A DNA stretch of 64,000 nt from Klenkia soli. GTDB taxonomy: Bacteria; Actinomycetota; Actinomycetes; Mycobacteriales; Geodermatophilaceae. The stretch covers positions 248,001-312,000 of the forward strand of contig NZ_FNIR01000002.1 in NCBI RefSeq assembly GCF_900103975.1. The letters run 5' to 3'. The notes under the pieces were generated by a model that saw only the letters and a program-made list of their open reading frames with translations, ran no database searches and was not told where the DNA came from. This document shows, one piece after another, positions 15,957 to 21,119 of this stretch (the first letter of the stretch is position 1; the number at the start of each line of letters is the position of its first letter). Both the position numbers and the translations under genes were made by a program.

Positions 15957-16658
15957 GTGACCGGGCCCGCGTACGCCGTGCTGGCCGGGAACATCCGCGC
16001 CCGGATCGTGAGCGGCGAGCTGGCCCCGGGGGAGCGGCTGCCCAACGAGCAGGAGCTCTCGGCCGAGTTCGGGGTCGGGCGGTCGACCGTGCGCGAGGCG
16101 TTGCGGTCGCTGGCGTCGCAGGACCTCATCCAGACCACGCGTGGGGTGGCGGGGGGCAGCTTCGTGAGCGTGCCGACGGCGGCGCACCTGTCGGCCCACC
16201 TGGAGACGGGGGTGGCCCTGATGGCGGCCGCCGAGCGGGTGACGGTCGGGCAGCTGATGTCGTTGCGTCACCTGCTCGAGGTGCCGGCGGCCGGTGAGGC
16301 GGCTCGGCACCGGACGGACGAGCAGCTGGAGGACCTGCGGCGAGCCGAGTTCGACCCGGCGACTGCGGTCGGCGAGGCGACGTATGCGGCGAACCAGGAC
16401 TTCCACCTGGTGCTGCTGCGAGCCAGCGGGAACCCGCTGCTGGAGGTCATCACGGCGCCGCTGTTCCGGGTGCTGGCGACGCGGTTCGGTCGCGACCACG
16501 CGCCGGACGGGTTCTGGGCGTGTGTGGCGGACGACCACGCGGAGCTGCACGACCTCGTCGCTGCTCGGGATGCGGACGGTGCTGTCACCGCCATGCGGCG
16601 CCACCTCGACCACCTCACCGGCGCCTACCAGCAGATGGACCGGTTGAGCCGGGGCTGA
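15957..16658 (+). CDS. FadR-family GntR transcriptional regulator (FCD domain)
   Basis: The 233-aa protein has an N-terminal winged helix (about residues 5-70: RIVSGELAPGERLPNEQELSAEFGVGRSTVREALRSL in pattern). The C-terminal helical FCD ligand-binding domain has the metal-site style histidines in NQDFHLVLL and DDHAELHD and in the last helix MRRHLDHL. The GTG start at 15957 is 88 bp from the divergent wrbA gene. It is probably a local repressor that responds to a carboxylate substrate and binds the TCAGACnnTTnnCG sites. A decayed copy of its 3' half occurs at 18690-18956. Confidence 0.9.
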   Translation: MTGPAYAVLAGNIRARIVSGELAPGERLPNEQELSAEFGVGRSTVREALRSLASQDLIQTTRGVAGGSFVSVPTAAHLSAHLETGVALMAAAERVTVGQLMSLRHLLEVPAAGEAARHRTDEQLEDLRRAEFDPATAVGEATYAANQDFHLVLLRASGNPLLEVITAPLFRVLATRFGRDHAPDGFWACVADDHAELHDLVAARDADGAVTAMRRHLDHLTGAYQQMDRLSRG

Positions 16659-16810: not shown

Positions 16811-17935
16811 TTATGCCTGTCCGCCGCGAATGACCCGTAGGCCCGTGGGCCCATTCAAAACTGCGCCGCCTTGATTGCCTCCTGCAATGGCCACCGGCAC
16901 GAGCCCGAACACGTGACGGTTCAACTCGTCCTGGGTGATGTTCAACTGTCCAGCGACTTCAATGGGCAGAAGATCCTGACTGCGAAGCGCTTTGAAGACC
17001 TTGGCGAGTAGCTGAGAGGTCTCGGGGACGATAGCGCCACGCGGTTCGCTGCTTCGGTAGCCCATCTGCGACAGCCGAACGCATAGGTCGCGATAGCCCC
17101 ACTCGGACAGGAGGTCCAGCTCATGGAGACGGTGGGTCAAGGCCATCGCCGCCACCTTCCAATGGCGCTTGGCTTTTAAAATGTGGTCAATCGAAGCATT
17201 GCGGAGACCCGCACCGAGCACGCTTTGCCGCGGCATTAGAAACGCCGCCGCGAAGGCCTGTGCCTCCTGTTCGGCTGGTTTTCCATGAGGAACCTCGTCG
17301 CCGCAGTGCAGGACCAAGTGACCCAACTCATGGGCCGCATCGAAGCGGCGCCGCTCTCCCGTCTTGGACGTATTTAGGAAAACGTAGGGGGCATCGTTGA
17401 GTTGGAAGCTATAGGCGTCCACGCTGGCGACGTCGGTTGCAAGCGAGAAAACGCGAACGCCGTGCGCCTCCATCAGGTGAACCATATTCGAGATCGGGGC
17501 CAGCCCTAGGCCCCAGCGCTCACGTACGACCGCCGCTGCGCGCTCGGGGTCGTATCCCTCCAGAGTGGGCAGGTCGGGCCCGGGCAGGCGAAAGCGCTGG
17601 TCGAGCCATTCGGCCAGATCCATCGCAATTGCACCTGCCGCGGTCGCGGAGTCGCGCTGTCGGGCGGTCATCTTGCTGAGAGCTCGAAAGCTGACCGCGT
17701 CGACGGGAACGAAGTCGATGTCGCTGGCAGCGAAGAATGACGGCGGCATTTCAAGAGCTTTCGCGAGCGCCTCGATGTTGTGCGGCAACGGGTCAACCTC
17801 GCCCCGCTCCCAGCGCGCGACGGTTCTTGCGGCAACCTCCACAGCCTGTCCGAGGGCAGTCTGCGAGAGTCCTCGCCGCTGCCGCGCCAGGGTGAGCCGC
17901 GCGGGATTGAAAGAACTTGGGGGGTCCTGGGTCAT
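16811..17935 (-). CDS. XRE-family regulator fused to ImmA/IrrE-type metallopeptidase
   Basis: The 374-aa protein has a helix-turn-helix of XRE type at residues 13-65 and a zinc peptidase domain with HELGH at residues 202-206. In phage and ICE systems such proteins cleave or antagonise repressors; in stress systems they act as regulators themselves. Base composition is AT-richer than the chromosome around it, marking the left part of an accessory island. ATG 17935 overlaps the stop of the preceding 218-aa gene (ATGA), so the two form an operon. Confidence 0.88.
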   Translation of the reverse strand: MTQDPPSSFNPARLTLARQRRGLSQTALGQAVEVAARTVARWERGEVDPLPHNIEALAKALEMPPSFFAASDIDFVPVDAVSFRALSKMTARQRDSATAAGAIAMDLAEWLDQRFRLPGPDLPTLEGYDPERAAAVVRERWGLGLAPISNMVHLMEAHGVRVFSLATDVASVDAYSFQLNDAPYVFLNTSKTGERRRFDAAHELGHLVLHCGDEVPHGKPAEQEAQAFAAAFLMPRQSVLGAGLRNASIDHILKAKRHWKVAAMALTHRLHELDLLSEWGYRDLCVRLSQMGYRSSEPRGAIVPETSQLLAKVFKALRSQDLLPIEVAGQLNITQDELNRHVFGLVPVAIAGGNQGGAVLNGPTGLRVIRGGQA

Positions 17936-18588
17936 CGAGGCTCGACAGGCACGACGATTCCGCCGCCTTCCTCGTCACCGTCGTCGATGATGGGCTCATC
18001 GGCTATGCCGCCGTCGTTGCTCAGCGGCGGGAGAATGTATCGCTGGTGCCAGTCGGTGATGAAGCCGCGGTGGTTGATCGCGGCAGGGAGTGACAGCTCC
18101 GCCCGAACCTCCTCGCGATCGGCGTACTGGAGAAGGAGCCAAGTCTCCAGTGGGCGGATGGGCTCCTCGTCTTCGTCCAGCTCGTCGAAAAACGTCATCT
18201 GTTCGTTATTTCGGGCCACCGCGACGGCGGTCCGCTCGCCCTTGGGCCACTTGGTCGTCGGGTATTTTCGGGCCAGCATGAACGGCACGCCGGTGACGGG
18301 ATTGCCCGCGGCGCAGACGATGGCCAGGCCGCGCTCTCGGTGGATGACCTTCGAGATGAGGTCCGTGTCGTTGGGCTCGTACCCCAGCGCTGAGAGCGCC
18401 TCCCGGGTGTACGCGACGCTGTGCATCCACCGTGCCATTCCGGACGCGGCGGGAGGGTAGAGACCCCCTGCATAGCTACGGGCCGCAGCAGCTGCGCGCG
18501 CGACAACCGCATCGCGCAGGAAGGCGGCGGTGAAGCCGAACTTTGACACCATCTGGTCGGCCGACTGCTCGTACGCGAACTCGGGCAT
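17932..18588 (-). CDS. Unknown 218-aa protein coupled to the XRE-ImmA protein
   Basis: I do not recognise a family. The N-terminal half is helical (MPEFAYEQSADQMVSKFGF, then an Ala-rich helix), the middle has RERGLAIVCAAGNPVTG, and the C terminus is very acidic (DDGDEEGGG). There is no signal peptide or membrane segment. It is translated first in a two-gene operon with the XRE-ImmA gene (4-bp overlap) and its start lies 21 bp from the edge of a perfect 42-bp palindrome. Possible roles include a toxin, effector or regulatory partner of the peptidase; none is shown. Confidence 0.7.
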   Translation of the reverse strand: MPEFAYEQSADQMVSKFGFTAAFLRDAVVARAAAAARSYAGGLYPPAASGMARWMHSVAYTREALSALGYEPNDTDLISKVIHRERGLAIVCAAGNPVTGVPFMLARKYPTTKWPKGERTAVAVARNNEQMTFFDELDEDEEPIRPLETWLLLQYADREEVRAELSLPAAINHRGFITDWHQRYILPPLSNDGGIADEPIIDDGDEEGGGIVVPVEPR

Positions 18589-18609: not shown

Positions 18610-18651
18610 TGTCTGCTTTTCTTACCTCATCTGAGGTAAGAAAAGCAGACA
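18610..18651. promoter_or_regulatory. Perfect 42-bp palindrome upstream of the 218-aa/XRE-ImmA operon
   Basis: The left arm TGTCTGCTTTTCTTACCTCA (18610-18629) is matched exactly by its reverse complement at 18632-18651 around a TC centre. It is strikingly AT-rich in this genome and lies 22-63 bp upstream of ATG 18588. The most likely role is an operator bound by the XRE protein of the same operon. A recombination site or RNA hairpin are alternatives. Confidence 0.75.
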
Positions 18652-18689
18652 GGCGCCCTTCTGTCCACCTGCGTGGCCTGTGGGACGGC

Positions 18690-18956
18690 GCGGCGCCGCA
18701 CAGAGCAACAGTGGGAGGACCTGCGCCGGGCGGAGCTAAGTTCGACCCCCCGTTGCAGGTGGGTGGGGCAGCCTACCTCCCGGGTGCTGGGGACCTGGGC
18801 CGGGCGCGACCTTGCGTCGGACGGGTTCTGGTCGTGCGTGGTCGACGACCACGCGGGACTGCACGACCTGATGGCCCGACGGTGCCCTTGTCGCCATGCG
18901 GAGGTACCTGGACCACTTGACCGGCGCCTACTGGCAGATTGACAGCCTCACTCGTG
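18690..18956 (+). pseudogene. Decayed 3' fragment of a gntR/FadR gene
   Basis: The translation carries EQQWEDLRRAEL, GFWSCVVDDHAGLHDLMA and, after a frameshift near 18870-18885, ALVAMRRYLDHLTGAYWQID. These match EQLEDLRRAEF, GFWACVADDHAELHDLVA and AVTAMRRHLDHLTGAYQQMD of the intact regulator at 15957. The middle, from the VGEATY region to the segment before GFWAC, is largely missing, and the DNA-binding half is absent. It is therefore a frameshifted, internally deleted remnant of a second copy. Confidence 0.85.
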
Positions 18957-19217
18957 CGCAGGACCAGAGTCCTCGCTAGGAACACCTGTGAGGATGGGCA
19001 ACTGCCGAGCTGTAGGGGTCGGCTTGCGTACCCGTCTAGTTCGAACGGGCTGCTTGGCAACAGTGTGCAACTCGGCTTTTTCGACGGGGCTTATCCACTG
19101 CTCGGCGACCGTTTGCAGCATCCGGGCGGCTGGACTCAGTAGTTGATAGGGAGTCTCGGCCAGCCGGCGAGCAGATATTGTCGCTTGGATACTTAGCCAG
19201 TTTTCAGGCGAGGTCAC
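18948..19217 (-). CDS. Small unknown protein (89 aa) coupled to the AvcD-like deaminase
   Basis: GTG 19217 overlaps the deaminase stop codon (GTGA), which is the main support for its being translated. The protein is basic in the middle (VRTRRVRKPTPTARQLP), starts MTSPENWLSIQATISARRL, and has no recognisable domain. Its 3' end runs a few bases into the decayed gntR fragment, so the C terminus may be recent. It could be an accessory protein of the anti-phage module or a spurious ORF. The ATGA/GTGA coupling common in this window favours the first. Confidence 0.5.
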   Translation of the reverse strand: MTSPENWLSIQATISARRLAETPYQLLSPAARMLQTVAEQWISPVEKAELHTVAKQPVRTRRVRKPTPTARQLPILTGVPSEDSGPAHE

Positions 19218-20887
19218 GATGCTGCTCCATCTCGGTTTTCGGCCTGCTGCTCGTTTAAGTCAGGCGAGGTGCCGGTGGTGGACGAATCCTTTATTGTCGA
19301 TTTCGCTAGCAGGTCAGCCGAAACTGCGACCGCCACAACTACAGCATCTTCCTGTTCTCGCACGGCCAATTCGCTCCAGGCGATTCCTACGGGAACTGAG
19401 TTCGCCGGGTCGTGGCGATTTATCGTCGACCCAAGTTTCCTCTTACCGGCAGTGAAAACCTCATCGTAGCGACTGGGACCAAAACCCAAGAATGCCTTGA
19501 AGGGGATCTTGTCACCCGCGGAACGGCTGCCCCCTTCTAAGGGTGGCCGGGTGTCGATCAAGTCGGCATACATGTCTCCGGCCAGGCTTTTAGGGTACGG
19601 CTCAACATATTGCACCTCGGACACACCCGCACCGACAATGAACTTCGTACACTCGTGACACGGAAAAGTAGTTGTATACAGCTTAGAATCCTGTATAGCC
19701 GTGCCCGTCCTCGCTGCTTCGACGATAGCTGCCTGCTCGGCATGCAAGCATCGTGTGAACTCGATCAGGGATTTGGCTCGCGTTCCGTCAAGTAGTGACT
19801 TGCCATCTTCGCCAGGCTTTCTGGCCTCTTTTAGGACTGCCGCACCACCCGCTTGGTTTCTGGCGGCGGTGAAGAAGTTCGCCTTGGCTAGACGGTCGAA
19901 AAGCTCACGAATAACGCTTTCGGTGTAGGCCGGATTCGGATCCGTACCCGACTGAAAGTCTCGGAAGTCCGGGATGTCACCTTCTCGGAATTGCCCTCCG
20001 CCAGGTCTGGGGACCTCATTTGTGCCGACGATGACAGGCGATCCAGCGGGAGGGACAATGGCGGCCCCGACCTGACGACCGACGGCCGCTGACCTTAAGG
20101 CGGCTGCGCTCGCAAATCTCATGGCCTCTTCGTCGGCGGACGGCGAAATGAACGGCGAGTCGAAGGCTCCGGACAGAAAACGATCAAGCCCGTCTGTCCA
20201 TGGTCGCCCTCGATTGACGGCTAGATAAAAGTCGGATTGAGCGAATGTATCGCGGACATTCTGACCGTGCTTGGCATCCACGTCGGCTTCGTCGCGGTCG
20301 ATTAAGCTTTGCGCTCGGCCCAGTGGTGCGCTATCGAACGTTTTATCCGCCTCGCCGAGTACTCGAGCCAGATTTCGAATTCTTTCGTCCCCATCCTCAA
20401 CTATCGATATTTGCCAGTAGGCGGCGCCGTAGACATTTCGTAGTAATTGAGCTTCGCGGGGGTGCTTTAGGCTGTCAAAGATGTACGCAATCGGAGGTGG
20501 GTCCGTAAGTGAACCCTCGTCGATCGCTTTTGAGCGGCGCGCTTGTCTGTGTCTGGCGACGTATGCGATAGCGAGCGCTGCTAATGCACTATGGTCCCCT
20601 GCCTCCTTGCGCAGGCGATCGCCGGCATCCATCCGGAGTTTGTGATAGTCGGGATTGTCGCGACTCGGAAGGGGAGAGCCAAAGTTCAAGTCATCTAGGA
20701 GGCCGGCAAGGTGCGCCCGTTCCGTGCTGTAGCCGTATGTCGTGAGCTTTCCTTCTAGGGACTCGCGAACCTCTTTGTTGCTGCTACCAAGCGGTGCAAC
20801 GAGCCCGATGAAGAGGTCATGGCGCTGACGGTCCGCTTGGGCGAGTTGCTGCAGGCTTCGTTGTGGACCGCTCGACCCGTCGACCAT
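19214..20887 (-). CDS. Anti-phage deoxycytidylate deaminase, AvcD/DcdV type
   Basis: The 557-aa protein has the two-part layout of AvcD/DcdV. An N-terminal P-loop-like nucleotide domain comes first (LFIGLVAPLGSSNKEV at about residues 25-40, AYIFDSLKHPREAQLLRNVYG at 134-154). A C-terminal cytidine-deaminase fold follows (ALRSAAVGRQVGAAIV near 263, TNEVPRPGGG near 289). The zinc site is intact: H382-A-E384 and P409-C-H-E-C413. Known members deplete dCTP/dCMP during phage infection and are held in check by a small RNA. Base composition is AT-richer than its neighbours, as expected for a transferred defence gene. ATG 20887 is the start used. Confidence 0.87.
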   Translation of the reverse strand: MVDGSSGPQRSLQQLAQADRQRHDLFIGLVAPLGSSNKEVRESLEGKLTTYGYSTERAHLAGLLDDLNFGSPLPSRDNPDYHKLRMDAGDRLRKEAGDHSALAALAIAYVARHRQARRSKAIDEGSLTDPPPIAYIFDSLKHPREAQLLRNVYGAAYWQISIVEDGDERIRNLARVLGEADKTFDSAPLGRAQSLIDRDEADVDAKHGQNVRDTFAQSDFYLAVNRGRPWTDGLDRFLSGAFDSPFISPSADEEAMRFASAAALRSAAVGRQVGAAIVPPAGSPVIVGTNEVPRPGGGQFREGDIPDFRDFQSGTDPNPAYTESVIRELFDRLAKANFFTAARNQAGGAAVLKEARKPGEDGKSLLDGTRAKSLIEFTRCLHAEQAAIVEAARTGTAIQDSKLYTTTFPCHECTKFIVGAGVSEVQYVEPYPKSLAGDMYADLIDTRPPLEGGSRSAGDKIPFKAFLGFGPSRYDEVFTAGKRKLGSTINRHDPANSVPVGIAWSELAVREQEDAVVVAVAVSADLLAKSTIKDSSTTGTSPDLNEQQAENRDGAAS

Positions 20888-21119
20888 GACGTCCTCCCAA
20901 GCTTCTTCGAGTCAGCAGTATGACTGGGCGCACCGACAGGCTGGGCGGATTGACGGGCGGTCTAGGTCGTCTTGTGAGGCTTGCGGTTCCAACGTGCGCT
21001 AGGAGCGGGTCCGCTGTGGGCGTGCCTGCCTGCACGCCGTGCTCGCGCGCGTAGCGCCAGCTGGGGTCGTGCGCAGGTCGTGAAGTCTCCGATTGCTCGT
21101 CGAGGGTCAGTCGGCGTGA
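20888..21119. other. Gene-free interval upstream of the deaminase
   Basis: No convincing ORF lies in these 232 bp between the deaminase start and the tetR stop. The half next to the deaminase should hold its promoter. In Vibrio the homologous gene is preceded by the inhibitory AvcI RNA, so a small RNA here is possible, but I see no sequence or structure that I can identify as one. Confidence 0.4.

Follow-up and report, generated by a model that had tools for sequence, protein, structure and literature searches.

A conserved small protein encoded beside an AvcD-like deaminase of Klenkia soli: a candidate regulatory partner with a clamp-binding-like motif

The deaminase gene, its small neighbour and the surrounding island

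The window, i.e. the whole stretch of DNA analysed here (64,000 nucleotides from Klenkia soli), carries on its minus strand a gene for an AvcD-like deaminase directly followed by a gene for a protein of 89 amino acids, called the partner below. The features concerned are the following, L029 being the locus of a relative whose deaminase is 59% identical.

20888..21119, minus strand: leader between a TetR-type gene and the deaminase, the expected place of the promoter and of any RNA regulator
19214..20887, minus strand: AvcD-like two-domain dCTP/dCMP deaminase, 557 aa (PADLOC, NF041025, Pfam PF00383)
19736..19744, minus strand: HAE zinc-site motif, deaminase residues 382-384 (invariant in alignments of 5 and of 24 rows)
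19649..19663, minus strand: PCHEC zinc-site motif, deaminase residues 409-413 (invariant in the 5-row alignment)
19214..19217, minus strand: GTGA, shared by the partner start and the deaminase stop (read from the sequence; an overlap peculiar to the window)
18948..19217, minus strand: partner protein, 89 aa, GTG start (homologues beside 10 of 10 close relatives; leave-one-out profiles)
19110..19199, minus strand: helix module, partner residues 7-36, W..A..L..P..L.PA.R.L (conserved columns; predicted helices in L029)
18984..19004, minus strand: QLPILTG, clamp-binding-like C-terminal motif, partner residues 72-78 (pattern counts; putative function)

The deaminase ORF starts with an ATG preceded by GGGAGGA. 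An initial annotation of this DNA had recognised an anti-phage deaminase of the AvcD/DcdV type that keeps both domains and the zinc-site motifs HAE and PCHEC, and our searches agree with this. The PADLOC dCTPase profile matched full-length (1.5e-129, residues 17-529), as for a member of the broad family, and Pfam PF00383 (cytidine deaminase zinc region) gave 1.5e-16. With NCBIfam NF041025, the equivalog for anti-phage dCTP deaminases, 3.6e-106 and 355.6 bits were obtained. Since this score lies below the cut-off of 400, the enzyme is filed here as AvcD-like and not as an NF041025 equivalog, a point of difference from AvcID (DcdV) of Vibrio and E. coli; it belongs to the same two-domain deaminase family and has kept the zinc-site motifs. 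Foldseek searches with a model of the L029 deaminase returned the dCMP deaminase 2w4l (1.0e-6) and the adenylate-kinase-related 3h0k (4.2e-5), and the modelled architecture is a kinase-like N domain followed by the deaminase domain. A PDB sequence search yielded six distinct sequences, each covering about 50-65 residues around the zinc site only. In the 24-row alignment the P, C, H and second C of PCHEC are invariant. Judged from these alignments the catalytic motifs are intact, and by analogy the chemistry is probably the same as that of AvcD.

The locus lies in AT-richer DNA, as had been noted before, with a GC content of 56.6% and 59.1% at 19-21 kb, whereas bins lying beyond 16-21 kb have about 69-79%. 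A second defence-type pair adjoins the deaminase and its partner on the minus strand (16811-18588). It consists of RmrA, with HTH and IrrE-like peptidase parts (16811-17935, PADLOC 1.2e-147), and RmrT (17932-18588, PADLOC 2.3e-46), the two genes overlapping by 4 nt; a published study names RmrT/RmrA in a toxin-antitoxin network (PMC10440598). A perfect inverted repeat with 20-nt arms and a 2-nt spacer is located just upstream of rmrT (18610-18651) and is perhaps an operator of the HTH protein RmrA. The pair is flanked by an intact GntR/FCD regulator gene (15957-16658, plus strand) and by a second copy of the 3' end of that gene, diverged and broken (18675-18943, plus strand, with blocks 75-83% identical), which ends 4 bases before the partner stop codon. 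This arrangement looks like a trace of the assembly of the island.

A protein gene conserved on one branch of the deaminases

Deaminase relatives were collected from 5 of 397 genomes of the order and 11 of 394 genomes of the class (the window's own included), from 59 plasmid records, a few of which were used, and from genome contigs (75 loci) and viral contigs (3 loci, all with 34-35% identity). Ten of them, L009 and L021-L029, count as close relatives, being 40% or more identical along most of the deaminase; L093 was not counted among these because its 48% identity spans 109 residues only. Left aside in counting partners were duplicates of the window, L021, L024 and L052 (L001, L004, L005, L006, L007) and L010, where the deaminase is split into two ORFs.

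The initial annotation had named lack of conservation of the 89-aa ORF as an outcome that would speak against it. A homologue was found directly downstream and on the same strand in 10 of 10 close relatives; with the window added, all 11 loci on the branch have it, an adjacency of the kind seen in type II toxin-antitoxin loci. When the ORFs downstream of the deaminases in the collected loci were searched with a seed profile built from four of them (window, L005, L006, L009), seven more partners were detected, with E-values from 1.1e-18 to 0.0023. When whole loci were searched in six frames, six of these seven ranked next after the seeds and their duplicates, and the seventh, L026 (E 0.044), was narrowly outranked by a weak match in L094 that is unrelated (E 0.034). 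In leave-one-out profiles all 11 partners scored above the best of 2000 shuffles, at a median pairwise identity among partners of 27%. In a FastTree phylogeny of 88 deaminases, from which L043, L080, L082, L087, L088, L089, L093, L094 and L095 were omitted as duplicate, short or cut, the 11 partner-bearing loci form one branch (support values left aside). Its hosts include Nocardioides carbamazepini, a Rhodococcus plasmid, Frankiales/Frankiaceae and Actinomycetes MAGs, Acidimicrobiia MAGs and one unassigned MAG.

The ORF might nevertheless be a chance frame in the 3' flank of an enzyme regulated by RNA, the more so as the GC-rich window holds many spurious ORFs of such length and searches of Pfam, PADLOC and NCBIfam gave no match to the small ORF at E-values up to 0.1. 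The presence of a homologue at this position in 11/11 loci, each scoring above 2000 shuffles, speaks against this explanation, which we reject as highly improbable. Instead, the comparisons identify the 89-aa ORF as a real, branch-conserved protein-coding gene family kept in place beside the nearest deaminase relatives, and the partner is almost certainly translated.

The GTGA overlap, for which translational coupling had been proposed, is present in the window but not in the other 10 loci. In those, the ATG taken as partner start is 16-112 nt away from the deaminase stop, counted from its first base. The conserved feature is therefore the same-strand adjacency and not the overlap. In some relatives alternative GTG or TTG starts lie closer to the deaminase stop, and some partner starts have a clear Shine-Dalgarno sequence (AGGAGG in L026). 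The description of the product as a small basic protein was borne out in so far as it is mildly basic (11 K/R and 8 D/E, counted by hand).

No partner separate from a deaminase was seen in the genomes searched. Among 325 genomes of the class, with 16 candidates scored in each genome listed, the only strong match was in the window's own genome, and two others were weak (4e-4 and 9e-4). A deeper search of four genomes of the branch gave a single strong partner match, adjoining the deaminase, the next best having E 0.008; a single-sequence search of 97 relatives gave the window's own protein and two weak matches (E 0.007 and 0.008). An out-of-sample search of 396 genomes of the phylum added no independent case, since its sole other match was the sequence already in the set as L027.

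Partner anatomy and partner types beside other AvcD relatives

The partner alignment has two conserved parts joined by a variable linker. The N-terminal part has the consensus W[LF]...A..A..L...P...LxPAxRxL. The C-terminal part carries a short motif reading QLPIL in the window, QLPLL in three partners, and QLPLV, QLPLI, QLPLA, QLPLK, QAPLM and QDPLL in others. L024 has no clear tail motif, and position 5 varies across the partners (L, V, I, A, M, K). A pattern picked after looking at the alignment, QLP[LI] within the last 40 residues, was present in 8/11 partners and in 0/612 control ORFs, the controls being the longest non-overlapping ORFs of at least 150 aa in the same loci.

Modelling with AF2 of the L029 pair, joined across the natural stop, gave confidence values of 85-90 for the partner helices and below 50 for the tail. 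When the partner was modelled by itself, on the same five rows, its helices reached 78-83 and its tail 51-59. These values, joined and alone, make the helix module credible and suggest a disordered tail. The slightly higher confidence of the helices in the joined chain weakly suggests a docking of the partner onto the deaminase.

Partners of other kinds were found elsewhere in the tree. On another branch, 32 loci encode a larger coupled downstream partner (169-210 aa in 28/32), which starts at -1 relative to the deaminase stop in 13/32. Three short members were searched against Pfam; one gave below-cut-off matches (peptidase N-domain, rhodanese, DUF488) and two gave none. Most of the larger partners carry a QLSLF/QLSLPF-like motif about 30 residues in, with QLSLF, QLSLPF, QTDLF, QASLF, QLELDL and the like. 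Within the first 80 residues QLxLF occurred in 4/32 larger partners versus 0/612 controls, QxxLF in 14/32 versus 3/612, Q[LM]xLx[LFYW] in 11/32 versus 4/612, the loosest pattern Qxx[LMI][FL] in 15/32 versus 22/612, and a pattern fitted by eye in 27/32 versus 3/612; these counts are not independent because the rows are related by descent.

Four of the larger proteins (L059, L073, L081, L084) have 642-667 aa. Scans of two of them, L081 and L084, showed TIR and APAZ-type domains fused to the partner domain. In L084 (7512-10954) the deaminase is followed by the fusion of clamp-motif-type partner, TIR and APAZ and then by a short pAgo (pAgo_I 4.3e-202). This locus is a deaminase joined to a SPARTA-like operon. 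L059, L073 and L081 have a similar arrangement, as judged by eye for L059 and L073.

A third type, of 47-83 aa and with a W...P pattern, accompanies the deaminase in 17/88 tree loci, Vibrio nigripulchritudo included (E-value limit 0.005; five weaker rows are uncounted). The spacing W[LFIMV]x14P is found in 11/17 of these partners and in 7/11 of the window type, and a profile comparison of the two types gave E 0.0025 and a probability of 12%, which is only suggestive of one family.

None of the three types was detected in 29/88 tree loci, a set to which the plasmid loci of E. coli and Klebsiella and the group L011-L018 belong. These plasmid loci have a terminator-like hairpin soon 3' of the deaminase, as seen by eye. 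L011-L018 represent eight genomes of one actinobacterial genus and encode a divergent deaminase. Other small ORFs are present in some of the 29 loci, e.g. L038, L039 and L092, which are related and have a different small downstream ORF in common (MSESRMMAEFARA...).

Possible roles of the partner

In the cited parts of the AvcID literature dCTP/dCMP is depleted by the enzyme, which the AvcI RNA keeps in check (PMC10511110; review PMC12409362). The published systems, as far as these sources describe them, use this RNA as antitoxin, whereas on the branch of the window a protein gene is conserved downstream. No such protein partner of AvcD was described in titles and abstract openings among the matches listed in a search of the open literature, and we regard an AvcD-like enzyme with a conserved protein partner, beside known systems described as RNA-regulated, as a new variant. 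Small proteins encoded beside or within the gene of a toxic defence enzyme have been reported for Rpn and Sofic, in the portions of the papers available to us (PMC10327210, PMC12249575). In this arrangement the pair resembles type II toxin-antitoxin systems, Rpn and Sofic alike; these involve other enzymes, and the likeness is one of gene order. It would be most economical to read the small protein as the regulator of the deaminase.

We propose a two-gene anti-phage operon of deaminase and partner. The active enzyme, to judge from known AvcD, would turn dCTP/dCMP into dUTP/dUMP and starve phage DNA synthesis. The partner would be a regulatory subunit whose N-terminal helix module holds the deaminase, while its predicted disordered QLPL tail may contact a further protein, for which the sliding clamp DnaN is the likeliest candidate. 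Deaminase activity would thereby be tied to the state of the replisome. To this reading as a whole we assign a probability of about 0.4. Its parts differ: that the partner binds and regulates the deaminase is probable on the sequence evidence, and that its tail binds the clamp is a tentative suggestion.

The clamp is suggested by the resemblance of QLPL to QLPLWG, the clamp-binding motif of mycobacterial ImuB (PMC10421592), and to the consensus QLxLF, validated with E. coli beta (PMC4549789). The likeness to ImuB is confined to a QLPL(W/L)G-like linear motif; ImuB is a large polymerase-like protein, unlike the 89-aa partner, whose putative motif QLPIL fails strict QLxLF. Indeed, 0/11 window-type partners fit QLxLF, which argues against the clamp. 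The strongest argument for it is that a better motif match recurs in a second family of partners of this enzyme, one unrelated to the first. In the window's genome a codon pattern for QLPLLG-like peptides gave 1 match versus 7 in the backward control. As context on clamp motifs of the host, PF00817 gave four matches in that genome, one ORF containing QGDLF and one QLELG.

Alternatively, the partner might simply be a protein antitoxin in the role of AvcI, binding and inhibiting the deaminase until infection, when it is lost; QLPL would then be part of the binding surface and have nothing to do with the clamp. We consider this possible, if somewhat improbable. It accords with the studied AvcD, held off by an antitoxin that is an RNA in the available account (PMC10511110), and with the lack of all three partner types in the loci examined from E. 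coli and Klebsiella, organisms in which such an RNA would be anticipated. It leaves unexplained the clamp-like motifs in two unrelated partner families. The RNA searches of the window's branch lend it little, as the null result there is matched by that of control leaders. The window's leader had no Rfam match, blastn among the leaders found no nucleotide conservation upstream of the deaminase, and fold z-scores ranged from -0.7 to 1.7 in 11 leaders; the E. coli (0.6) and Klebsiella (0.2) controls, in which AvcI is assumed, were equally null, so that the test has no power to tell leaders with an RNA from those lacking one. Where AvcI RNA would be expected, immediately 5' of the deaminase, both plasmids have small annotated ORFs of about 60 aa (L100, 2700-2885, and L101, 2228-2410).

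An activator or phage sensor required for deaminase action is a further alternative. The fusions to TIR and APAZ-type defence domains on the other branch (L081, L084) count in its favour, as they might be expected of a sensing or scaffolding part, but that partner family is unrelated to the window's by any test made and toxic enzymes usually need a brake. We hold such a role to be unlikely.

A regulatory subunit with a clamp-contacting tail may be extended to the family. AvcD-family deaminases would then commonly be two-protein systems, in which partners stand in for the RNA antitoxin and, via clamp motifs, tie the deaminase to the replisome; we find this generalisation rather unlikely. If it were true, clamp motifs would have arisen in at least two unrelated partner families, as a QLPL tail in the window's branch and as QLSLF/QLSLPF near the N-terminus in the other. 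The deaminase would then be more than a free enzyme that depletes the pool, being switched or positioned at replication forks. To link a defence enzyme to the replisome is to infer boldly. A working clamp motif would mean that it is wired to the replication machinery which phages hijack or replace. Hold-off and release of AvcD-type enzymes are described, in the sources as available, for RNA-regulated examples, and the conserved partners on other branches are candidate regulators that provide ready-made pairs for experiments. Defence-finding tools could gain as well, as PADLOC and NCBIfam, in the searches made here, recognise the deaminase and miss the partner in the window.
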